This document shows positions 1 through 64,000 of a stretch of DNA of 64,000 nt, one piece after another; position 1 is the stretch's first letter, and every line of letters starts with the position of its first letter. A model generated the notes under the pieces. The model did not search any database. It worked only from the letters and a program-made list of their open reading frames with translations, and was not told the DNA's origin. Both the position numbers and the translations under genes were made by a program. Source of the stretch: Terebella lapidaria (lineage: Eukaryota > Annelida > Polychaeta > Terebellida > Terebellidae); the NCBI GenBank assembly GCA_949152475.1, contig OX424563.1:41478526-41542525 (forward strand). Direction: 5' to 3'.

Positions 1-1273
1 GATGGACATGCGAGGCTCCACCGTAAGATGGACATGTGACGCTCCACCGTACGATGGACATGCGATGCTCCATCGTACGATGGACATGGGATGCTCCACC
101 GTATGATGGACATGTGACGCTCCACCGTATGATGGACATGCGATGCTCAATCGTACGATGGACATGCGATGCTCAATCGTACGATGGACATGGGATGCTC
201 CACCGTATGATTGACATGCAAGGCTACACCGTAAAATGGACATGTGATGCTCCACCATACGATGGACATGCGACGCTCCATCGTACGATGGACATGGGAT
301 GCTCTACCGTACGATGGACATCTGATGCTCCACCATACGATGGACATGTGACACTCCGCTGTACGATGGACATGTGACGCTCCACCATATGATGGACATG
401 TGACACTCCGCTGTACGATGGACATGTGACGCTCCACCATATGATGGACATGCGATGCTCCACCGTACAATGGACATGCGACGCTCAAATGTACGATGGA
501 CATATGACGCTCCACCGTACGATGGACATGAGACGCTCCATCGGATGATGGCCTAGTGACGCTCCATCATAAGATGGACATGCGACGCTCCATCGTACGA
601 TGGACATGTGACGCTCCACCGTACGATGGACATGCGACGCTCCACTGTAGGATGGACATGCGATGCTTTACTGTACAATGGACACGTTACGCTCAACCAT
701 AAGATGGACATGCGATGCTCCACAGTACGATGGACATGGGACGCTCCATCATACGATGGACATGTGACGCTCCACCGTACGATGGACATGCGACGCTCCA
801 CTGTATGATGGACATGCGATGCTTTACTGTACAATGGACACGTTACGCTCAACCGTAAGATGGACATGCGATGCTCCACAGTACGATGGACATGGGACGC
901 TCCATCATACGATGGACATGTGACGCTCCACCGTACGATGGACATGGGATGCTCCACCGTATGATTGACATGCAAGGCTACACCGTAAAATGGACATGTG
1001 ATGCTCCACCATACGATGGACATGCGACGCTCCATCGTACGATGGACATGGGATGCTCTACCGTACGATGGACATCTGATGCTCCACCATACGATGGACA
1101 TGTGACACTCCGCTGTACGATGGACATGTGACGCTCCACCATATGATGGACATGTGACACTCCGCTGTACGATGGACATGTGACGCTCCACCATATGATG
1201 GACATGCGATGCTCCACCGTACAATGGACATGCGACGCTCAAATGTACGATGGACATATGATGCTCCACCGTA
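1..1273. repeat. 26-bp satellite array, left segment
   Basis: Tandem 26-bp monomers run from the first base of the window, so the array continues beyond the left edge. The unit begins GATGGACATG and ends CTCCACCGTAC, with variable bases between and within. About 49 units are present. The segment contains an internal duplication: the distinctive variant around 208-236 (ATTGACATGCAAGGC) recurs around 963-991. The array stops inside a unit at CCACCGTA, where the LINE begins, and resumes at 8338 in the same orientation, so both sides belong to one original array. Confidence 0.98.
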
Positions 1274-1299
1274 GTAGTAGTAGTAGTAGTAGTAGTAGT
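1271..1299 (-). repeat. (CTA)n tail at the LINE 3' end
   Basis: Nearly ten copies of GTA on the plus strand, CTA on the LINE strand, join the element to the satellite. Simple-repeat 3' tails instead of poly(A) are known for several LINE clades and reflect the reverse transcriptase start site. The first GTA is also the last GTA of the interrupted satellite unit (CCACCGTA), so the junction shows 3-bp microhomology with the target. Confidence 0.85.
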
Positions 1300-1304
1300 T
1301 TATT
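1299..1304 (-). promoter_or_regulatory. AATAAA polyadenylation-type signal of the LINE
   Basis: The plus strand reads TTTATT, so the LINE strand reads AATAAA, directly abutting the (CTA)n tail. Its place at the very end of the element fits a 3'-processing signal, though the absence of spacing to the tail is unusual. Its use cannot be shown from sequence. Confidence 0.5.
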
Positions 1305-2226
1305 CGTGCTCTCATAGGAAATATAACAAAATGACATAATATTGAACAGCATATTTTGAGGCACAAGTTGTGACGTGTGAGTCCGAAGACTGTAGACCTA
1401 AATTCAGTGCAATGACAAAAACATTATTATAATAGTAGTTCAACATACAGAAATTAGGCACATCTCAACTTTACTTTTAAAACCAGTGAGGGAATAATAG
1501 AACGAGAAAAAAAAAAACATAAATGCGATGAATGGATGACGATGGTGAGGGGTTAATGGGGAGATGATGATGGACATGAAGTGAAAAAAGGGACGCAGTA
1601 AGGAAGAAAACGTAATTAAGTTTGATGCTTAAGAACGTTATCATAGCCGAAGCTAAAGAATGAGATGATACCCATAGCTAAAGAATGAGATGATACCCGA
1701 AACTAAAGAATGAGATGATGCCCGCTGCTAAAGAATGAGATGATACCCAAAGCTAAAGAATGAGATGATACCCGAAACTAAAGAATGAGATGATACCCAA
1801 AGCTAAAGAATGAGATGATACCCGAAACTAAAGAATGAGATGATACCCAAAGCTAAAGAATGAGATGATACCCAAAAGCTAAAGAATGAGATGATACCCG
1901 AAACTGAAGAATGAGATGATGCCCGCTGCTAAAGAATGAGATAACGACGCAAAAGAAAATGATGATACCCGATGCTAAAGAATTAGATGATACCCGCTGC
2001 TAAAGAGATTGTTGATACCCGATGCTAAAGAAATTAGATGATACCCGATGCATAAGAAATTGATGATACCCGAAGCTAAAGATTGATGGTACACGATGCT
2101 AAGAATGTGATGTAATACCCAATGATGAGGATATTGCCGACGAGGAAGGTGTAGATGTTTGGAGATGACCAGTGTTCCCGATGCAAAGCCCCCCAACGAC
2201 AGCCCATTGGACCAAGCCACTCCGAA
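1305..2226 (-). other. LINE 3' untranslated region
   Basis: This is noncoding sequence between the ORF2 stop and the tail. About half is the 25-bp minisatellite described separately. The flanking parts (1305-1640 and 2121-2226) are A-rich on the plus strand and include an A run near 1507-1516. I recognise no gene, tRNA-like promoter or other known element there. In this family the 3' region is expected to hold the RNA structure recognised by the element's own reverse transcriptase. Confidence 0.7.
1640..2120. repeat. 25-bp minisatellite inside the LINE 3' region
   Basis: Units of 25 bp with the core AAAGAATGAGATGATACCC repeat regularly from about 1651 to 1950 (about 12 copies) and then degenerate, with altered spacing, to about 2120. 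Successive TGATACCC cores at 1741, 1766 and 1791 show the period. Units alternate between AAAGCT and GAAACT linkers, suggesting some growth as 50-bp pairs. This repeat is unrelated to the 26-bp satellite outside the element. Confidence 0.93.
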
Positions 2227-5200
2227 TCAGAGATCGCTATACCCCTGCAAGACACGACGCCCGACGCGCGAAGAGAAACTGTTTTTGCTACGCAATGTCT
2301 GGTCAGAGTTCAAGTATAATTCACTCGAAAGATTATTCCATATTTCAGGGCCTTGTCTCAAAAGACTCTGTCCCGTTACAACATTTTTATACTTATAATG
2401 AAGTAATTTCATTTTCATACTGTGTCGAGTTCCATGCTGATGAATTTCATTGGAAACAACAAATATACCATTCAATGCGGGAGGTAATTTCCCCAAGAGA
2501 AACGCATGCACGTATTTAGATACTTGTATGTTGTAAATATCCATCAACTTGAACAGCTTCAAGTTTTTGAACAACGGCTCAGTATGAGCATTAAAAGGGA
2601 CTCCCGATATTGATCGAATTATTTTCTTTTGTTGGACTATAAGTTTATTAGTATAGATACTGTGTGCTGCCCCCCACATCGTTATGCCATAGGAGAGATG
2701 TGGATATATTAAGGTGTAGTAAATGGTGACTAAGCTCTGTTTGGGTAAGAACTGTTTAGCTTTGTTAATGGCGAATAGGCCGTTCGATACTTTTTTTGAA
2801 ACATATTGAATATGTGAGTCCCACTTCAATTTATTATCGATAAATATTCCGAGAAATTTCATGCATTGACATGACTGAATAATAACACCGGATAAGCGGA
2901 GTGTAGTGGGTTCCTTCTGGTGCGAAATATTCGTAAATAGCATATATTTTGTTTTTGAAATATTCAGTGACAGTTTGTTTGCCTTGAACCAATCAGTTAA
3001 GACATGGAGTTCCTTATTCATTTCCGTATAAAGTCGATCCAAGTTGTTACCTGAGGTATATAGTGTCGTATCATCAGCGAATAATATGGATTTTGCGTGA
3101 GTTAGGGTGTCTGGTAAATCATTCGTATATATTATGAATAACAGCGGCCCAAGGACTGATCCTTGCGGGACTCCGCACGTGATGTTTTGAGTCGTTGATC
3201 GTGCCCCCCTATATTCCACATATTGGCGTCGGTTGGTAAAATAATCTCTGAACCAGTCATAGGCTATGCCTCTTATCCCATAAAAATTGAGTTTATAGAG
3301 TAGTATGTTATGATCGATTGTGTCAAAGGCTTTTGACAAGTCGAGAAATACTGATAATGACATATTGTTACTATTCGAAGAAGAGTTGATATCGGTTACA
3401 AATTTGGTAACGGCATCAACGGTGCTTCTATTTGGACGGAACCCATATTGATTATCGTACAAAAGGCCATAACTTTCAAAGAAAAACATGAGTCGTTTGT
3501 GAACAATCTTTTCGAGCAACTTAGATACTGATGGTAACAGAGATATCGGTCTGTAATTAGTAAACTCGTCCTTGGCTTTAGATTTGTGGATGGCTACTAC
3601 TTTTGCAAGTTTCAGAGAGTCTGGTACTTTACCACTAGCGAGAGATTTGTTTATTATAATACTAAGGGGTAAACATACAGAATTTCCTAAACATTTTAGT
3701 AGTTTTGTTGATATATTATCATGACCTTTACTACATTTGGGCTTACATTTGTTCAGGATGAGAAGTATTTCATTTGGGTCAGTGGGCGAAAGAAAGAGAG
3801 AATCTTTGTTACGTTGTTTATCCTTATGGAGGTAATGTGCAGCATCAAATGTCGCGGTATCTATAGCGCTTGCAAACTTGGGTCCAATTTCTGTGAAGTA
3901 TTTACAAAATTCCTCTGCTATAATATTATCATCAGAAATTTCAATACCTTTATTCGTGAATACCTGAGCTGCCGAATTTTTGTTATTATTCCTACCAAGT
4001 GCGCTGTTTATGACCCCCCATGTTTTTTTCATATCCCCTTTATAATCGTTCATTAGTTCAGCATAATATTGTTTACGCGTTTCTGATTTAAGTCTATTGT
4101 AAGCGTTCCTGTATAAAATGTATTCTTTATAGACAGGGTCTGTTCTAGATTTACCAATGCACTGTTTGTACAGAGTTAAACACTTATTAGATGATTTAGT
4201 TAAGGCGGGAGTCATCCATGGCTCTCGTATAATCTTACGTTTAGGAATATTAATCGTTTTGAGTGGAGCATGAGTGTTAATTATTGTGTTGAGAGAATTT
4301 ATAAAGTAGTCACAAGCTTCGTCAGTTGATTTATCATCCAATTCCTCGTTCCAATTGATAGTATCAAGAGACCGTTTAATGTTTACAATTTGAGCATTAT
4401 TCAATTTCCGACACTGGAACTGTATGGTCGACTTGGGCAGTTGTTTTTGGGCTGTAGAATTAATAAAACAAAATACAGGCAAATGGTCTGACATATCACT
4501 GACTAAAATTGCGGAGTTGACTTTGCACTGTTTGTTATGTTTAACATAAATATTGTCAATAAGAGTGGCGGAGGTATGAGTAATACGGGTAGGTTTACTT
4601 ATGGTTGGGATTAGTCCATTAGCAAAAGCGGAGTCAAGTAGGTCTGAAGTCTGTTTATGGGTATTTACCTTTAGTAGATCAAAGTTTTGATCCGTTCCAA
4701 TAACTACATTTTTGAAGTTATGCAATTTCGAAAATATATCGTCATAACGTTGAAGTGATAAATTTGAATCGCTATTGGGAATGCGATATATTTCCCCAAC
4801 AATTGTTTTAGAGTTTCCGGAATCAATTTCTATGAAGATAGATTCGAATTCTCCTTCAATGAAGGAGCTAACATTTTCTTTCACTTTATATGAAAGTTCA
4901 TTTCGTACATATATGGCAACACCACCACGTTTCATAATCGTCCTATGTTTCGATATTAGATTATATCCCGGAATTTCAGCCAGCTGCACGTTGTTTTCAT
5001 GCAGGAAAGTTTCACAAAGTAGAACACAGTCAAGAATGATATCACGGTCCTCTAGTTTAGTGAGGACATTTTGCAAAGATATCAATTTGGAGGACAAAGA
5101 TTGTATGTTAAAATGCATCACTTTCAAATGGCTGGCAAAGATATCGTCATTTTCACAAATATGAGAAATTAACCCATCTATATCATGGTAGTTGCTGTCT

Positions 5201-5310
5201 CGTATGGCAGACGACAGTGATATTTCTTCATCGGTTTCTCTTGACTCGACCAGACATGACGTAAGATCCGACATATTACTAAGATTAGTAGTACAATCAC
5301 CCGCCATCAT
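2227..5310 (-). CDS. LINE ORF2 polyprotein: AP-like endonuclease and reverse transcriptase
   Basis: A 1,027-residue protein that nicks target DNA and copies the element RNA by target-primed reverse transcription. Residues about 60-280 are an exonuclease/endonuclease/phosphatase domain: HFNIQS (66-71), CETFL with E100, GTDQNFDLL (205-213) and the terminal SDH (274-276). Residues about 560-830 are the reverse transcriptase: NYRPISLL (585-592), GFRPNRST (623-630), LDLSKAFDTIDH (656-667, catalytic D657), GVPQGSVLGPLLF (713-725) and FADD (744-747). The C-terminal 200 residues match the thumb and tail usual for this group (RHS at 962-964, GPEIWNNL at 987-994). There is no RNase H domain and no zinc knuckle. 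The frame is uninterrupted and all catalytic motifs are present. The start ATGATGG overlaps the stop of an open frame upstream. Superfamily is certain; the exact clade is not. Confidence 0.96.
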   Translation of the reverse strand: MMAGDCTTNLSNMSDLTSCLVESRETDEEISLSSAIRDSNYHDIDGLISHICENDDIFASHLKVMHFNIQSLSSKLISLQNVLTKLEDRDIILDCVLLCETFLHENNVQLAEIPGYNLISKHRTIMKRGGVAIYVRNELSYKVKENVSSFIEGEFESIFIEIDSGNSKTIVGEIYRIPNSDSNLSLQRYDDIFSKLHNFKNVVIGTDQNFDLLKVNTHKQTSDLLDSAFANGLIPTISKPTRITHTSATLIDNIYVKHNKQCKVNSAILVSDMSDHLPVFCFINSTAQKQLPKSTIQFQCRKLNNAQIVNIKRSLDTINWNEELDDKSTDEACDYFINSLNTIINTHAPLKTINIPKRKIIREPWMTPALTKSSNKCLTLYKQCIGKSRTDPVYKEYILYRNAYNRLKSETRKQYYAELMNDYKGDMKKTWGVINSALGRNNNKNSAAQVFTNKGIEISDDNIIAEEFCKYFTEIGPKFASAIDTATFDAAHYLHKDKQRNKDSLFLSPTDPNEILLILNKCKPKCSKGHDNISTKLLKCLGNSVCLPLSIIINKSLASGKVPDSLKLAKVVAIHKSKAKDEFTNYRPISLLPSVSKLLEKIVHKRLMFFFESYGLLYDNQYGFRPNRSTVDAVTKFVTDINSSSNSNNMSLSVFLDLSKAFDTIDHNILLYKLNFYGIRGIAYDWFRDYFTNRRQYVEYRGARSTTQNITCGVPQGSVLGPLLFIIYTNDLPDTLTHAKSILFADDTTLYTSGNNLDRLYTEMNKELHVLTDWFKANKLSLNISKTKYMLFTNISHQKEPTTLRLSGVIIQSCQCMKFLGIFIDNKLKWDSHIQYVSKKVSNGLFAINKAKQFLPKQSLVTIYYTLIYPHLSYGITMWGAAHSIYTNKLIVQQKKIIRSISGVPFNAHTEPLFKNLKLFKLMDIYNIQVSKYVHAFLLGKLPPALNGIFVVSNEIHQHGTRHSMKMKLLHYKYKNVVTGQSLLRQGPEIWNNLSSELYLNSDQTLRSKNSFSSRVGRRVLQGYSDL

Positions 5311-6176
5311 GCTATGAAGGGATGATCGTACTCAGTCTCTTCCCACGCGCGAGACGTCCGGTCGGGCAGAAGGACATCGACCGCCAACACAGGAGCAGAG
5401 ATCCCAGGACAGCAGATGGACAGCAAAACATGGGGAACACTAGACAACACACCTGTGGATGACATGAGAAAGAAGTGACTAACATGATAGCAGAAAAATG
5501 GCAAGATATGAAAAAAGTATGATTTAGATGACATGATAATAAATAAAAACATCAGTACTATTCGAACAATGAACAAATCGTTATGCAAGATACATGTATG
5601 CTGTTGAATGATCATGGGATGTACATGTATGGGTATCATGTGGTGAATGAGAATGAAAGAATATCTCCCAATTTCATACCCTGGCATTGTGTTATTTATA
5701 TATGATCTAGATTTCAGTGAACAAAACAAAACAAGGAAGCGCAACTGAAATTCAGTGTAGATGTAAGGAAGACAGATAAATCCTGACTTGGGAACGCTAG
5801 CAACAATTACAAGTATCAGTCAGGGTGATTATTCCAAACGTTCATGTGCCTCAATACATAGAAAGGAAGCAGTTATGTAAATTACGTGGCAACATTTGAG
5901 AAAAGAAAGAAAAAAAACCCAATAATTATTCATAGATATATAGCCACATTTACTGATCATATTTTCTCCATAGTAAAAAAAAAATAAAATAAAAATAAAG
6001 TATGCACATGTACTGGTATGCTCCTGTGCTAGCGAGAACATTTGTTAGGACAACACTGTACAGATAGACATATAGAGAATACAAGCTTGCATACACATAC
6101 CCACGGATAGGCTTACATGTAACAATAGTGATCAGTTTGTTGTTGTTTTGGTGCACTTTGACATGGATTAGTGCAG

Positions 6177-6270
6177 CAGTCTAGACGCGAGCTGTACTAG
6201 TTGGTGCAGATCATTTAATGCTCGACTGAGCTCTGTGAAATAAGAGCTATTACTCAGGGCGTCTAGACTG
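6177..6270. repeat. 12-bp inverted repeats 70 bp apart in the LINE spacer
   Basis: CAGTCTAGACGC at 6177-6188 is matched by its exact reverse complement at 6259-6270, with 70 bp between. The arms could form a long stem-loop in RNA or be terminal inverted repeats of a very small nonautonomous element. I do not see convincing direct repeats flanking the arms. Confidence 0.75.
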
Positions 6271-6284
6271 ACCGCACGGTCAGT
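6267..6284. repeat. 8-bp stem hairpin overlapping the inverted repeat
   Basis: ACTGACCG and CGGTCAGT flank a 2-base CA centre, giving a compact perfect hairpin that overlaps the right arm of the 6177-6270 inverted repeat by four bases. The two structures are mutually exclusive in part, so this could be a conformational switch, but that is inference. Confidence 0.7.
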
Positions 6285-6886
6285 GGGTCAATCACATGTA
6301 AATATAAACAAGGCACCAAAACAAAAACAAACAAAAAACAAGACTGGGATATATGTCAATTGTTTTAAATCTACATGCAGATGTCTTTGGATATAAAATC
6401 GTTAGGAATCACAACTGCGCTGTTCCATTTTTACTATTATCTGCACATTGAGGAAAGTCAAAAATATTTCCAGTCAATGTTATACCATACATTATGTGAG
6501 GAGTTTACATTAAGTAACTGGAGAGTATTGTGTTACCAGAATCAATAATACATGCGTACTTGGTTTTACAACTACCACAACGATATTTTAAAACATAAAA
6601 TACTATTTAGGATACATGAAGAATAACAACATGGGCTAATTATTGATGAGAATATTTAGCAATGCAATGATGCCTATTTTGATGTTGAATCTCATGTAGC
6701 TTGTGTTGTTGATGACATATTATAGAACAATTTGCTTGTATCAAAGCGAAATGCTGACTAAGACCTAGAAGTATAAGCTGATAACAATTCAAAAGTACAG
6801 CGATTGGCGACTGGTATCAATAGTACTGAGAACTGAGAACATGCAGTAGGCATAGCAAAAAATGGAGGGAGGGATTGTCACTCACT

Positions 6887-8056
6887 TCACTTCAGCGAAT
6901 GTCTACACTCTCCAAGGATTTCACCCATCACATTCTTGCCAGTCCGAGGGGTCTGTGGGTCTTTTTTCATCTGGCTGTAGCTAACGCCGGCTCCCCAAAA
7001 CTTGTCCCTGCTACACTCCACGAGCGATCGTTGACCAGTTGTAAGCAGAGCGGCTTTTAGGTTGTCGTTCTGAGAGAACTTCCTATACACGCAGTCGGCG
7101 AGAGTTTTACGCGCGATGCTTGTCCAGGACTCCGGATGTGGGATGGCGTCGCCGATCTGTTTGATCATCAACGGATCACTTAGTGACATGATGTCGGCTG
7201 CTGCTCCATGTTGTCCAGCCAGGGTCGCTTTCCGGTACTGGAAGCACTGTTCGGCACTGTTGAAGGTCGTCCCGTCCATACTAAAGAGACCCTCTTGAGT
7301 GTAGAAGTTGCTGAACATAGACAGCTGACCACTGAACAGGACGTCGGAGGAGGTTGTTATGGTGCCGAGGTCGGTCGTATCAAAGGGGACATCTTGGAGC
7401 GTTTCGATCGTGAACCATTTGCCATCCACCAGCAGCTTGTCTTGTATGATCGTGGCCTTGTGTTTGAGGTCCTTGGCTTTCTTCATGACCGGTCGAAGAA
7501 CATTCCTGCGCTGTGAAATTTCTTTGGGGAATTGTTCATTGATGAACACTGGTTCGGACAAAGAGGAGAGATTTCTCGCACTAGCTAGTACCTTCTTCTT
7601 GCTACTGTGTCGTGAGAAGCGTGCTATAATGTCTCTAGTTTTACCTTGTGTGTACTTGTTACCGTTAAGCCGATGACAGCTGACGATATCTATTCCGGCT
7701 GTATCCATGCCCATGTCCCTTTCGAAGAGCTGCATGAGGGTGCTCCTGATGTCGTCCTCGGACTCATCGGTGGGCTCCTCGACACCACTGAAGATCAGGT
7801 TCTCCCGCATCGTGTAAGACTCCATCTTTATCAATCTCTCTCGATTTTCAGCACACTTTGCCTGGATGTGTCCGATGTGTGACTTGAGTTGCACAACTTC
7901 AGTTTTGAGAGCTGTATTTTCCGTGGCTATTTTCTGTAAGGCTTCTCTCATATCCTTTATGTCATCTTGCACACTCGATACTGCTTTTTCTATTACCTTG
8001 GATAGTTGTGCTATTATTTCCTCACGAAAAGCGTCGGTCCAGTTTGGTCGTGGCAT
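6887..8056 (-). CDS. LINE ORF1 protein: coiled coil, RRM-type RNA-binding region and C-terminal NADAR domain
   Basis: A 389-residue protein. The first ATG after the upstream in-frame stop is at 8056 (protein starts MPRPNW); a GTG five codons earlier is not needed. Residues about 15-80 are a charged heptad-like coiled coil. About 84-215 resemble the RRM plus C-terminal region of L1-type ORF1p (RENLIFSGV 84-92, RDIIARF 141-147, EQFPKEISQRR 174-184, LLVDGKWF 208-215), expected to bind element RNA as a trimeric chaperone. Residues about 238-389 match the NADAR/YbiA/DUF1768 fold: FSNF (248-251), SAEQCFQYRKA (267-277), W311, KFSQN (326-330), LLTTG (337-341), VE (346-347), FWGAG (353-357), TGKNVMGEIL (372-381). 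NADAR enzymes are N-glycosidases; described activities include cleaving riboflavin intermediates and removing ADP-ribose from guanine. No frame change separates the two halves. The fusion is seen directly; its function in the element is inferred. Confidence 0.88.
   Translation of the reverse strand: MPRPNWTDAFREEIIAQLSKVIEKAVSSVQDDIKDMREALQKIATENTALKTEVVQLKSHIGHIQAKCAENRERLIKMESYTMRENLIFSGVEEPTDESEDDIRSTLMQLFERDMGMDTAGIDIVSCHRLNGNKYTQGKTRDIIARFSRHSSKKKVLASARNLSSLSEPVFINEQFPKEISQRRNVLRPVMKKAKDLKHKATIIQDKLLVDGKWFTIETLQDVPFDTTDLGTITTSSDVLFSGQLSMFSNFYTQEGLFSMDGTTFNSAEQCFQYRKATLAGQHGAAADIMSLSDPLMIKQIGDAIPHPESWTSIARKTLADCVYRKFSQNDNLKAALLTTGQRSLVECSRDKFWGAGVSYSQMKKDPQTPRTGKNVMGEILGECRHSLK
6890..7345 (-). 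other. NADAR (YbiA-like N-glycosidase) domain within LINE ORF1
   Basis: Domain annotation for ORF1 residues about 238-389. The conserved elements occur in family order: SNF near the start, the S-A-E-x-x-F/Y helix with a following K, a mid-domain W and KF pair, the LLxTG-x(5)-E segment, WGxG, and a closing GKN-x-x-G-x-x-L segment ending in a basic residue. About 150 residues is the usual full length, so the domain is not truncated. Residues linking it to the RRM part (about 216-237) are T/D-rich and look like a flexible linker. Confidence 0.85.
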
Positions 8057-8337
8057 GTTAATGGCTTTCACACCTCACAGCAGGTATTGATCGTTTGACC
8101 AGGTATGGGGCCAAATATGGCTGCTACTACAGATTTTAATATCCAAACTTCAAAACTTGTTTTCCGGCTATCTGTGATTTTTTTTATCCCATATGTGTGC
8201 TATATCCAGTCTATAGTAGTTTATATTCCTTTTTATCCAGTTTTGTAATGTCTCATCAAATTATAACGATGCCAGGGAGGAAATTTTAGGAGACTTTTCA
8301 AACTCTGTTACCACATTTTTCAATCACCGACTACCTA
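8057..8337 (-). promoter_or_regulatory. LINE 5' region, likely holding the internal promoter
   Basis: About 280 bp lies between the satellite junction and the ORF1 start. It is AT-rich and has no open frame of note. LINEs of this type carry an internal RNA polymerase II promoter here. A perfect CArG-type motif (CCAAATATGG, 8111-8120) lies about 55 bp upstream of the ORF1 ATG; it matches the CC(A/T)6GG consensus bound by SRF/MADS factors, but a chance match is possible. No TATA box is evident at the outer end. Confidence 0.45.
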
Positions 8338-11300
8338 GATGGACATGAGACGCTCCATCGGATGATGGCCTAGTGACGCTCCATCATAAGATGGACATGC
8401 GACGCTCCATCGTACGATGGACATGTGACGCTCCACCGTACGATGGACATGCGACGCTCCACTGTAGGATGGACATGCGATGCTTTACTGTACAATGGAC
8501 ACGTTACGCTCAACCGTAAGATGGACATGCGATGCTCCACAGTACGATGGACATGGGACGCTCCATCATACGATGGACATGTGACGCTCCACCGTACGAT
8601 GGACATGCGACGCTCCACTGTATGATGGACATGCGATGCTTTACTGTACAATGGACACGTTACGCTCAACCGTAAGATGGACATGCGATGCTCCACAGTA
8701 CGATGGACATGGGACGCTCCATCATACGATGGACATGTGACGCTCCACCGTACGATGGACATGCGACGCTCCACTGTATGATGGACATGCGATGCTTTAC
8801 TGTACAATGGACACGTGATGCTCCACCGTACGATGGACATGTGATGCTCCATCGTACGATGGACTAGGGAAGCTCCACCGTAAGATATGTGACGCTTCAC
8901 AGTACGAAGGACATGGGACGCTCCATCATACGATGGACATTTGATGCTCCACTGTACGATGGACATGTGACGCTCCACCGTACGATGGACATGTGACGCT
9001 CCAATGTACGATGGACATGCGACGCTCCATCGTATGATGGACATGTGATGCTCCACCGTACGATGGACTAGCGATGCTCCACCATAAGATGGACATGTGA
9101 CGCTCCACAGTACGATGGACATGGGACGCTCCATCATACGAAGGACATGTGATGCTCCACCGTACGATCGACATGTGATGCTCCACCGTACGATCGACAT
9201 GTGATGCTCCACGGTACGATGGACATGTGACGCTCCACCGTACGATGGACATGGGATGCTCCAATGTATGATGGACATGCAACGCTCCACTGTATGATGG
9301 ACATGCGATGCTCCACTGTACGATGGACATCTGACGCTCCACCATACGATGGACATGCGATGATCCACTGTACGAAGGACATGTGACGCTCCACCGTACG
9401 ATGGACATGTGACACTCCATCGTACGATGGACTAGCGATGCTCCATCGTAAGATGGACATGCGACGCTCCACGTACATGTGATGCTCCACCGTACGATGG
9501 ACATCCGACGCTCCACTGTATGATGGACATGCAATGCACCACCGCATGATGGACATGCGAGACTCCACCGTACGATGGACATGTGACAATCCACCGTACG
9601 ATGGACATCTGACGCTCCTCCGTACGATGGACAAGCGACGCTCCACTGTACGATGGACATGTGACGCTCCACCGTACGATGGACATGCGACGCTCCATCG
9701 TACGATGGACTAGCGACACTCCACCGTAAGATGGACATGCGACGCTCCACCGTACGATGGACATCTGACGCTCCTCCGTACGATGGACAAGCGACGCTCC
9801 ACTGTACGATGGACATGTGACGCTCCACCGTTAGATGGACATGCGACGCTCCATCGTACGATGGACATGCGACGCTCCACCGTACAATGGACATGCGACG
9901 CTCCATCGCAGGATGGACATGCGACGCTCCACCGTACGAAGGACATGCGATGCTCCACCGTACGATGGACATGCGACGCTCCATCGTACGATGGACATGT
10001 GACGCTCCACCGTACGATGGACATGCGACGCTCCACTGTATGATGGACATGCGATGCTTTACTGTACAATGGACACGTTACGCTCAACCGTAAGATGGAC
10101 ATGCGATGCTCCACAGTACGATGGACATGGGACGCTCCATCATACGATGGACATGTGACGCTCCACCGTACGATGGACATGGGATGCTCCACCGTATGAT
10201 TGACATGCAAGGCTACACCGTAAAATGGACATGTGATGCTCCACCATACGATGGACATGCGACGCTCCATCGTACGATGGACATGGGATGCTCTACCGTA
10301 CGATGGACATCTGATGCTCCACCATACGATGGACATGTGACACTCCGCTGTACGATGGACATGTGACGCTCCACCATATGATGGACATGTGACACTCCGC
10401 TGTACGATGGACATGTGACGCTCCACCATATGATGGACATGCGATGCTCCACCGTACAATGGACATGCGACGCTCAAATGTACGATGGACATATGATGCT
10501 CCACCGTACGATGGACATGAGACGCTCCATCGGATGATGGCCTAGTGACGCTCCATCATAAGATGGACATGCGACGCTCCATCGTACGATGGACATGTGA
10601 CGCTCCACCGTACGATGGACATGCGACGCTCCACTGTAGGATGGACATGCGATGCTTTACTGTACAATGGACACGTTACGCTCAACCGTAAGATGGACAT
10701 GCGATGCTCCACAGTACGATGGACATGGGACGCTCCATCATACGATGGACATGTGACGCTCCACCGTACGATGGACATGCGACGCTCCACTGTATGATGG
10801 ACATGCGATGCTTTACTGTACAATGGACACGTTACGCTCAACCGTAAGATGGACATGCGATGCTCCACAGTACGATGGACATGGGACGCTCCATCATACG
10901 ATGGACATGTGACGCTCCACCGTACGATGGACATGCGACGTTCCTTCGTACGATGGACATGGGACGCTCCACCGTACGATCGACATGCGACGCTCCTTCG
11001 TACGATGGACATGGGACGCTCCACCGTACGATGGACATCTGACGCTCCACCGTACGATGGACATCTGACGCTCCACCGTACGATGGACATGCTATGCTCC
11101 ACCGTACGATCGACATGCGATGCTCCACCGTACGATGGACACGTGATGCTCCACCGTACGATGGACATCTGACGCTCCACCGTGCGATGGACATGCTATG
11201 CTCCACCGCACGATGGACATGTGATGCTCCACCGTTCGATGGACATGGGACGCTCCACCGAATGATGGACATGCGAGGCTCCACCATAAGATGGACATGT

Positions 11301-61503: not shown

Positions 61504-61529
61504 CTCAAGTTACTGTTTAGTAACTTGAG
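61504..61529. repeat. Perfect 10-bp fold-back at the boundary between the two satellites
   Basis: CTCAAGTTAC and GTAACTTGAG flank a 6-base centre, TGTTTA. The left arm begins in the last 26-bp unit (its GATGCTCAA variant) and the right arm runs into the first 75-bp unit (AACTTGAGATTTT), so the dyad sits exactly on the switch point. Confidence 0.9.
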
Positions 61530-64000
61530 ATTTTGAGAAGATTCTGTTGTTAGTAAGGTGGTTTTGAAGAATTGAAGAAGTACAACGCACTGAGGGAACT
61601 TGAGATTTTGAGAAGATTCTGTTGTTAGTAAGGTGGTTTTGAAGAATTGAACAAGTACAACGCACTGAGGGAACTTGAGATTTTGAGAAGATTCTGTTGT
61701 TAGTAAGGTGGTTTTGAAGAATTGAACAAGTACAACGCACTGAGGGAACTTGAGATTTTGAGAAGATTCTGTTGTTAGTAAGGTGGTTTTGAAGAATTGA
61801 ACAAGTACAACGCACTGAGGGAACTTGAGATTTTGAGAAGATTCTGTTGTTAGTAAGGTGGTTTTGAAGAATTGAACAAGTACAACGCACTGAGGGAACT
61901 TGAGATTTTGAGAAGATTCTGTTGTTAGTAAGGTGGTTTTGAAGAATTGAACAAGTACAACGCACTGAGGGAACTTGAGATTTTGAGAAGATTCTGTTGT
62001 TAGTAAGGTGGTTTTGAAGAATTGAACAAGTACAACGCACTGAGGGAACTTGAGATTTTGAGAAGATTCTGTTGTTAGTAAGGTGGTTTTGAAGAATTGA
62101 ACAAGTACAACGCACTGAGGGAACTTGAGATTTTGAGAAGATTCTGTTGTTAGTAAGGTGGTTTTGAAGAATTGAACAAGTACAACGCACTGAGGGAACT
62201 TGAGATTTTGAGAAGATTCTGTTGTTAGTAAGGTGGTTTTGAAGAATTGAACAAGTACAACGCACTGAGGGAACTTGAGATTTTGAGAAGATTCTGTTGT
62301 TAGTAAGGTGGTTTTGAAGAATTGAACAAGTACAACGCACTGAGGGAACTTGAGATTTTGAGAAGATTCTGTTGTTAGTAAGGTGGTTTTGAAGAATTGA
62401 ACAAGTACAACGCACTGAGGGAACTTGAGATTTTGAGAAGATTCTGTTGTTAGTAAGGTGGTTTTGAAGAATTGAACAAGTACAACGCACTGAGGGAACT
62501 TGAGATTTTGAGAAGATTCTGTTGTTAGTAAGGTGGTTTTGAAGAATTGAACAAGTACAACGCACTGAGGGAACTTGAGATTTTGAGAAGATTCTGTTGT
62601 TAGTAAGGTGGTTTTGAAGAATTGAACAAGTACAACGCACTGAGGGAACTTGAGATTTTGAGAAGATTCTGTTGTTAGTAAGGTGGTTTTGAAGAATTGA
62701 ACAAGTACAACGCACTGAGGGAACTTGAGATTTTGAGAAGATTCTGTTGTTAGTAAGGTGGTTTTGAAGAATTGAACAAGTACAACGCACTGAGGGAACT
62801 TGAGATTTTGAGAAGATTCTGTTGTTAGTAAGGTGGTTTTGAAGAATTGAACAAGTACAACGCACTGAGGGAACTTGAGATTTTGAGAAGATTCTGTTGT
62901 TAGTAAGGTGGTTTTGAAGAATTGAACAAGTACAACGCACTGAGGGAACTTGAGATTTTGAGAAGATTCTGTTGTTAGTAAGGTGGTTTTGAAGAATTGA
63001 ACAAGTACAACGCACTGAGGGAACTTGAGATTTTGAGAAGATTCTGTTGTTAGTAAGGTGGTTTTGAAGAATTGAACAAGTACAACGCACTGAGGGAACT
63101 TGAGATTTTGAGAAGATTCTGTTGTTAGTAAGGTGGTTTTGAAGAATTGAACAAGTACAACGCACTGAGGGAACTTGAGATTTTGAGAAGATTCTGTTGT
63201 TAGTAAGGTGGTTTTGAAGAATTGAACAAGTACAACGCACTGAGGGAACTTGAGATTTTGAGAAGATTCTGTTGTTAGTAAGGTGGTTTTGAAGAATTGA
63301 ACAAGTACAACGCACTGAGGGAACTTGAGATTTTGAGAAGATTCTGTTGTTAGTAAGGTGGTTTTGAAGAATTGAACAAGTACAACGCACTGAGGGAACT
63401 TGAGATTTTGAGAAGATTCTGTTGTTAGTAAGGTGGTTTTGAAGAATTGAACAAGTACAACGCACTGAGGGAACTTGAGATTTTGAGAAGATTCTGTTGT
63501 TAGTAAGGTGGTTTTGAAGAATTGAACAAGTACAACGCACTGAGGGAACTTGAGATTTTGAGAAGATTCTGTTGTTAGTAAGGTGGTTTTGAAGAATTGA
63601 ACAAGTACAACGCACTGAGGGAACTTGAGATTTTGAGAAGATTCTGTTGTTAGTAAGGTGGTTTTGAAGAATTGAACAAGTACAACGCACTGAGGGAACT
63701 TGAGATTTTGGGAAGATTCTGTTGTTAGTAAGGTGGTTTTGAAGAATTGAACAAGTACAACGCACTGAGGGAACTTGAGATTTTGGGAAGATTCTGTTGT
63801 TAGTAAGGTGGTTTTGAAGAATTGAACAAGTACAACGCACTGAGGGAACTTGAGATTTTGGGAAGATTCTGTTGTTAGTAAGGTGGTTTTGAAGAATTGA
63901 ACAAGTACAACGCACTGAGGGAACTTGAGATTTTGGAAGATTCTGTTGTTAGTAAGGTGGTTTTGAAGAATTGAACAAGTACAACGCACTGAGGGAACTT
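61520..64000. repeat. 75-bp satellite array, about 33 copies, open at the right edge
   Basis: Units of exactly 75 bp contain TTAGTAAGGTGG and GTACAACGCACTG; the GTTGTTAGTA landmark falls at 61621, 61696 and 61771. Almost every unit is identical. Variants appear only at the ends: a G for C in the first unit (near 61577), GGGAAG for GAGAAG in the units near 63711, 63786 and 63861, and a 2-bp loss near 63936. It shares no sequence with the 26-bp unit or the LINE. Because 75 is a multiple of three, long minus-strand frames (800 codons or more) run through it; they repeat a 25-residue unit and I do not call a gene. Confidence 0.97.

Follow-up and report, generated by a model that had tools for sequence, protein, structure and literature searches.

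An open reading frame in Terebella lapidaria contig OX424563.1 joins, in one uninterrupted frame, an RNA-binding protein of the type encoded by LINE retrotransposons and a domain resembling the NADAR (YbiA-like) N-glycosidases. This raises the question of whether a mobile element carries such an enzyme as part of its own ORF1 protein (ORF1p), whether the enzyme has been kept over evolutionary time and, if so, on what it would act. The window, that is, the whole stretch of 64,000 nucleotides that was analysed, was studied by repeat analysis, profile and sequence searches, structure prediction, residue mapping and phylogeny. The features delimited are detailed in Table 1.

Table 1. Features of the LINE insertion carrying the ORF1-NADAR frame (positions are those of the window).
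Feature	Positions	Strand	Basis and remarks
Whole LINE insertion	1271..8337	(-)	5′ end 8337, 3′ (CTA)n tail 1299-1271; 26-bp minisatellite stops at 1273 and restarts at 8338
3′ trinucleotide tail, (CTA)n	1271..1299	(-)	Repeat analysis
ORF2, APE-type endonuclease and reverse transcriptase, frame of 1034 aa plus stop	2227..5331	(-)	First in-frame ATG at codon 8
Inter-ORF spacer, 1555 nt, with hairpin of ~200 nt at 6135-6332	5332..6886	(-)	
ORF1, 389 aa (8056..6890) plus stop	6887..8056	(-)	ORF list, Pfam, model
Coiled coil as a single long helix, residues 5-82	7811..8044	(-)	AlphaFold2 model
RRM, ~residues 83-175	7532..7810	(-)	Match to L1 ORF1p central domain, AlphaFold2 model
L1-type C-terminal domain (CTD), ~residues 176-236	7349..7531	(-)	L1 ORF1p match ends at residue 231; model
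NADAR domain, ~residues 238-389	6890..7345	(-)	Pfam, structure comparison, residue mapping

The LINE insertion and its flanks

The frame lies in a LINE insertion of 7.07 kb, composed in order of a 5′ UTR of 281 nt, ORF1, the spacer, ORF2, a 3′ UTR and the (CTA)n tail. The features of a LINE are present: a downstream ORF2 with endonuclease and reverse transcriptase, a simple 3′ tail and defined ends. The insertion is flanked on both sides by the same 26-bp minisatellite, with unit GATGGACATGTGACGCTCCACCGTAC, which covers the window from position 1 up to the 3′ tail and restarts immediately beyond the 5′ end (repeat analysis of 1-10500; the register argument at the junctions is based on unit boundaries). 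The translation of the window shows this minisatellite extending to approximately 61 kb, where a second, very regular tandem array adjoins it (~61510-63998), with a period of 25 residues (~75 nt) in translation. The element was inserted at GTAC of the minisatellite unit and the (CTA)n tail runs on from that TAC; the site, seen in one copy, may reflect chance or a target preference. Target-site duplications are common in non-LTR retrotransposons but not required. At the two junctions no identical stretches of 4-15 nt were found with the boundaries shifted by several bases, the tandem-repeat flanks blurring this test, and the exact joined 20+20-nt flank expected of an empty target site was absent from the minisatellite array. 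ORF1 and ORF2 are co-oriented inside one insertion, and the NADAR frame is therefore the ORF1 of the LINE itself and not a neighbouring gene.

The non-coding parts of the element contain further repeats. The 3′ UTR includes a 25-bp tandem repeat in 19 copies (1643-2112), and the spacer a near-perfect inverted repeat of ~200 nt (6135-6332), with outer arms of 20 nt that are 95% complementary and a predicted RNA fold with a z score of -7.4 against 200 shuffles. No Rfam match was obtained up to E 1 in window positions 1000-8500. The hairpin may derive from a MITE-like insertion, or may be a structured RNA, perhaps one that serves the translation of ORF2. As for a third gene, the spacer frame of 170 aa (5819..5310) gave no Pfam match up to E 1.

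ORF2 and affiliation of the element

ORF2 matched the Pfam families Exo_endo_phos (3.7e-8) and RVT_1 (9.7e-38). At least 1997 relatives were found at E 1e-20 or better among 7999 candidates scored, the best of the matches listed being P0021, 87% identical over 1025 residues. In the Tx1 clade, within the L1 superfamily, the reverse transcriptase groups with L1/Tx1 and ORF2 bears a C-terminal zinc knuckle. The protein studied here, with 1034 aa, no CCHC motif detected by regular expression and low similarity to L1 (~66 bits to L1 ORF2p over the endonuclease-reverse transcriptase region; 47 bits to R2), does not look Tx1-like to us. From its motifs, we tentatively take its reverse transcriptase to be of the Jockey superfamily (CR1/L2-like). 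If ORF2 is indeed unlike that of Tx1, the NADAR-ORF1 module would sit in more than one LINE clade. This would be allowed by the shuffling of ORF1 described in the Jockey superfamily, in which type II ORF1s occur (PMC4120745).

The third-position GC was 0.55 in the N-terminal part of ORF1 and 0.63 in the NADAR part, against 0.36 in ORF2; overall GC of the UTRs and spacer was 0.36-0.39. This contrast between ORF1 and ORF2 possibly reflects different origins or different codon selection. Additionally, an ORF1-NADAR relative (P0007) and an ORF2 relative (P0140, 41% identical to ORF2 of the window) are both on 'ena' contigs of exactly 6489 nt, and perhaps belong to one element, the jitter null being ~9% for any such coincidence.

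Architecture of the ORF1 protein

The Pfam NADAR profile (PF08719) matched ORF1 with 106 bits (cut-off 35.1), over profile positions 11-163 of 163. The AlphaFold2 model, of high confidence and calculated for one chain only, presents in the N-terminal part a coiled coil, then one RRM and then a CTD of the L1 fold, adjoined by a complete NADAR domain with its alpha+beta fold. The whole domain agrees in structure with E. coli YbiA (2b3w) and with 8bau. On this model, ORF1 is an L1-type (type II) ORF1p with a C-terminal NADAR of the YbiA subfamily. The earlier note, made from the sequence alone, had claimed a LINE ORF1 with an in-frame and complete NADAR domain, and the intact frame within the insertion together with the full-length Pfam match bears this out. 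It had proposed to search the Pfam profile and to compare the predicted structure with YbiA, and had counted a loss of catalytic residues on alignment against its reading; the first gave a significant match, the second agreement over the whole fold, and the catalytic residues are kept, as given below.

Active-site residues

The residues reported to matter in the NADARs of P. nicotianae and E. coli C7 are, respectively, E43/E88, K50/K95 and E125/D171, E125 being a mark of the YbiA subfamily; in the E. coli C7 protein E88A had a minor effect in vitro, while E88Q was inactive (PMC11543638). By alignment, E43, K50 and E125 of P. nicotianae correspond to E269, K276 and E347 of ORF1 in the window. 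The numbering offset of 2 used in this mapping is upheld by all 13 published residues compared. The three catalytic residues are present in the window, and their equivalents are kept in 15/15, 14/15 and 14/15 ORF1-NADAR fusions. The lysine is lost in P0008, and the sole missing E125 cell is that of P0003, which also accounts for one missing D130 and one missing W133 cell. Other active-site positions (P. nicotianae numbering) are retained in 15 (W89), 14 (K75), 13 (W133) and 12 (D130) of the 15 fusions, and all seven residues in each of 34 sampled phage and bacterial NADARs. In the fusion alignment E269 is invariant (13/13), and few positions anywhere in the protein are conserved as strongly as its active-site residues.

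The contacts on the adenine side are altered. R79 is replaced by D303 in the window and kept in 4/15 fusions (28/34 of the other NADARs), and R93 is replaced by A315 and kept in 1/15 (5/34). The loop bearing Y84 is absent from the window, Tyr occurring in 2/15 fusions and Phe in two more, against Phe or Tyr in 34/34 of the other NADARs, with a gap placement that depends on the alignment. We read this pattern as a glycosidic chemistry that would be retained and a recognition of the remaining ligand (adenine and outer diphosphate contacts) that would be altered. Because the adenine-side contacts are changed, the substrate in the window may not be ADP-ribose proper. The NADAR enzyme of ORF1 is probably active. 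Conserved residues are not proof of a protective role, since E. coli YbiA and phage NADARs were active in vitro and did not rescue cells from DarT1 (PMC11125620).

The family of ORF1-NADAR fusions

A single-sequence search of 5.8 billion proteins, with 3381 candidates scored, gave 17 matches, 12 of them ORF1-NADAR fusions (P0001-P0008 and P0010-P0013). P0009, P0014 and P0015 matched in the ORF1 part only, and P0016 and P0017 in the NADAR only. A profile search added, among the 8000 candidates with most words in common, two further fusions (P0018 and P0019) and one stand-alone NADAR (P0020); as it did not recover P0012, P0016 and P0017, the count of at least 14 related fusions is a lower bound. 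By Pfam, NADAR was present in 15 of the 18 proteins of alignment A4. The set of 15 fusions leaves out P0009, P0014 and P0015, which are without NADAR, and retains partial rows (P0004, of 284 aa, which begins inside the RRM, and P0005, whose coil is short) and irregular ones (P0003, which towards its end diverges from NADAR, and P0002, which contains internal duplications). P0014 and P0015 are short ORF1-like proteins of 248-257 aa that match RRM-CTD, possibly a NADAR-less form of ORF1.

Sequence identity between the fusions and the protein of the window is 25-44%. The earlier note had considered that the fusion might exist in this single copy with neutral evolution of its C-terminal part; the 14 related fusions contradict the single occurrence, and on constraint the data are of protein-level identity and trees. 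Over all pairs of the 13 sequences in alignment A1, the median identity was 0.346 in the NADAR, 0.342 in the RRM, 0.397 in the CTD and 0.195 in the coil. NADAR and RRM are thus about equally conserved while the coil drifts, which suggests a constraint on the enzyme similar to that on the RNA-binding part. Separate trees of RRM-CTD and of NADAR recovered the group of the window with support of 99/97 and 99/99, respectively, and the group P0010/P0012/P0013 with 90/95 and 100/97. Agreement is claimed solely for these two groups: P0011 was placed with P0006/P0007/P0010/P0012/P0013 in the NADAR tree and elsewhere in the RRM-CTD tree, which beyond the group of the window was poorly resolved, with long branches of P0019, P0018, P0011 and P0008. 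Since the group of the window was recovered in both separately built trees, RRM-CTD and NADAR appear to have travelled together, and the protein-level identities and trees indicate long joint inheritance of the fusion under constraint.

In a tree with 34 bacterial and phage NADARs, the 15 LINE NADARs fell on one side of a branch with support of 79, inside which five further rows, left uncounted, may also fall (two NADARs from the PDB, three proteins from the database). The 34 sequences were a random draw from 83 kept at 70% identity thinning, out of 155 sequences from 156 loci (L049-L204); the panel leaves out L001-L048, which mostly match the DUF4326 part of P0016, and knowingly includes no cellular animal NADAR. 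A single origin of the LINE NADARs is not claimed from this tree. No related locus was confirmed by tblastn with A2 against prokaryote contigs, or with A1, A2 and A3 against viral contigs, in a scan that depends on short exact patterns. This would fit a eukaryotic element, although it says little given the collections and the scan.

Proposed role of the NADAR domain

The ORF1p of L1-type elements binds the RNA of its element, as established for L1. The coiled coil-RRM-CTD part of the protein would likewise coat the RNA of this element, and a competent NADAR on the same particle would strip ADP-ribose, or a related ribosyl group, from guanines of that RNA or of single-stranded cDNA, keeping reverse transcription unblocked. 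We favour this reading, its chance of being correct falling somewhat short of even. The fusion, with its predicted fold, its conserved sequence and its catalytic residues, is what the analysis shows, whereas enzymatic activity, substrate, a protective role, and the modifier and its host are inferences. NADARs, eukaryotic members included, remove ADP-ribose from guanine in DNA (PMC11543638); on guanosine in RNA they were the only tested hydrolase family active, and they were inactive on phosphate-end ADP-ribose (PMC11833690). As NADARs act on ADP-ribosylated guanine and ORF1p binds RNA, an eraser on an RNA-coating protein would be best explained as cleaning guanines of RNA or cDNA. The likely source of the marks would be a host guanine ADP-ribosyltransferase of the CARP-1 type. 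Guanine-N2 ADP-ribosylation of DNA was reported for six edible clams, one of them being the source from which CARP-1 was cloned (PMC11209040). By analogy with these clam enzymes, a host source of guanine marks exists in principle. RNA viruses, including those of bivalves, annelids and crustaceans, are also reported to carry NADARs, for which host macromolecular ADP-ribosylation is argued to be the target (PMC9503650).

PARP marks on nucleic acids are mostly at termini. A PARP-based defence would be a weaker version of the proposal, since these are positions at which the tested NADARs were inactive (PMC11833690). ZAP/PARP13 restricts human L1, an effect credited to lost integrity of the RNP and loss of L1 RNA and not to ADP-ribosylation (PMC4441479). 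The earlier note had suggested that the element removes ADP-ribose from its RNA, cDNA or target DNA, either to counter a PARP-like defence or to repair damaged ends. The removal fits the guanine chemistry described (PMC11543638, PMC11833690), whereas the two purposes fit poorly with inactivity on phosphate ends, and reversal of a mark on the guanine base appears likelier than either. A counter-modification role of NADAR is plausible but unproven.

The chemistry could instead be directed at small molecules, such as cyclic or free ADP-ribose alarm signals or reactive ribosylated metabolites, the fusion to ORF1p merely securing expression. Phage NADARs have been proposed to act mainly on small ADP-ribose signals (PMC9503650) and bacterial and plant NADARs on intermediates of the riboflavin pathway (PMC9503650, PMC11543638), and the altered adenine-side contacts would suit a smaller or different substrate. 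We consider this rather unlikely, because the fusion to an RNA-binding chaperone persists over deep divergence, which argues for action where RNA is, and the viral NADARs of eukaryotic hosts are argued to have macromolecular targets (PMC9503650).

It is less likely still that NADAR serves as a binding module and not as an enzyme, holding ADP-ribosylated nucleic acid or protein (e.g. at DNA nicks, a site of PARP action) and guiding the particle to integration sites. The NADAR active site does bind ADP-ribose, 8bau being a complex with it, and the catalytic lysine is lost in one of the 15 fusions; a pure binder, however, need not keep both the E125-equivalent glutamate and the lysine, each found in 14. 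ADP-ribose marks at DNA breaks are of the phosphate-end kind. On phosphate-end ADP-ribose the tested NADARs were inactive (PMC11833690). A structural role, in which the domain would stabilise the ORF1p particle, extend it or lend it additional affinity for RNA, its active site being a relic, is marginally less probable again: other LINE ORF1s bear varied domains (PHD, esterase, CCHC; PMC4120745), and little is said to be understood of what esterase-bearing ORF1ps do (PMC3905857), but such a role does not predict active-site residues among the most conserved of the protein, with E269 invariant. Finally, a host or viral NADAR gene might lie beside the LINE by chance, or have been captured by a single copy and now be drifting. 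The third-position GC of ORF1, far from that of ORF2, could mean that the pieces differ in origin; nevertheless, the two ORFs share one insertion with a 3′ tail and the same minisatellite on both sides, the frame is uninterrupted, the fusion recurs in 14 other proteins, and P0007 and P0140 are on contigs of equal length, although with the null rate given above, so that this explanation is very improbable.

If the NADAR acts on the element's own RNA or cDNA, as we favour, this would be a retrotransposon with a dedicated eraser of nucleic-acid ADP-ribosylation, and would point to an undescribed host defence. It would also provide a purpose that can be tested for the NADARs of animals, which are described as having an unclear role (PMC11125620). 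With a high-confidence model and an active site retained in 14-15 of 15 diverse fusions, enzyme assays and mutant tests are direct. More speculatively, and with a probability that we regard as low, invertebrate hosts may mark invading RNA or cDNA with guanine ADP-ribose through CARP-1-like enzymes, the LINE lineage for that reason carrying a guanine de-ADP-ribosylase. Guanine marking by the host would then be an unrecognised defence against transposons and viruses, which would also explain NADAR in RNA viruses of such hosts, and the lost adenine-side contacts would represent tuning to nucleic-acid-linked substrates.

Comparison with known systems

The existence of LINE ORF1-NADAR fusions was known in outline. 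The earlier note could not say whether such fusions had been reported; they had, in one sentence on Crassostrea gigas, in which several Tx1 LINEs appear to have a YbiA-family NADAR in their ORF1 proteins, of unclear role, with RNA processing suggested (PMC12477816). Among the papers listed from the open-licence PMC library, judged on title and on the opening of the abstract, no other reports a LINE-NADAR fusion. These searches likewise brought up no printed account of an L1-type architecture combined with a full enzyme, of how deep the family is, of its active-site record or of its altered adenine side. The oyster elements share with the window a LINE ORF1 protein with a YbiA-family NADAR and differ by description in their assignment to Tx1, ORF2 of the window apparently being set apart by its length, its lack of CCHC by regular expression and its low score against L1 ORF2p; what that report says on NADAR includes no analysis of active site, structure or selection for the LINE proteins (PMC12477816).

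No toxin partner was recognised in the element: ORF1 and ORF2 are its two long coding frames, and the spacer frame has no Pfam match up to E 1. In DarT1-NADAR toxin-antitoxin systems NADAR is likewise an eraser of guanine ADP-ribosylation (PMC11543638), but DarT1-linked NADARs have Asp at the E125 position, where the NADAR of the window has Glu. With the YbiA-subfamily NADARs of E. coli (2b3w) and P. nicotianae (8bau) the window shares the domain fold and, with the latter, the catalytic E/K/E; it differs in the fusion to an RNA-binding ORF1p and in the changed R79, Y84 and R93 contacts.

Human LINE-1 ORF1p, of type II, has the coiled coil, RRM and CTD found in ORF1 of the window. L1 ORF1p ends after the CTD, whereas in the window a NADAR of 150 residues follows. 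Captured NADARs are also present in brown-algal Gypsy elements (Ectocarpus paper), which in contrast are LTR retrotransposons that carry the domain in the N-terminal region of Pol and have no ORF1p (PMC12477816). The esterase-bearing ORF1 of CR1, RTEX and ZfL2-1-type LINEs is a further captured enzyme with a conserved active site, occurring across LINE clades; it is a lipid-binding SGNH esterase, and these proteins are said to lack structural RNA-binding domains (PMC3905857), whereas in the window it is an RNA-binding ORF1p that carries the enzyme, a predicted nucleobase/ADP-ribose glycohydrolase.
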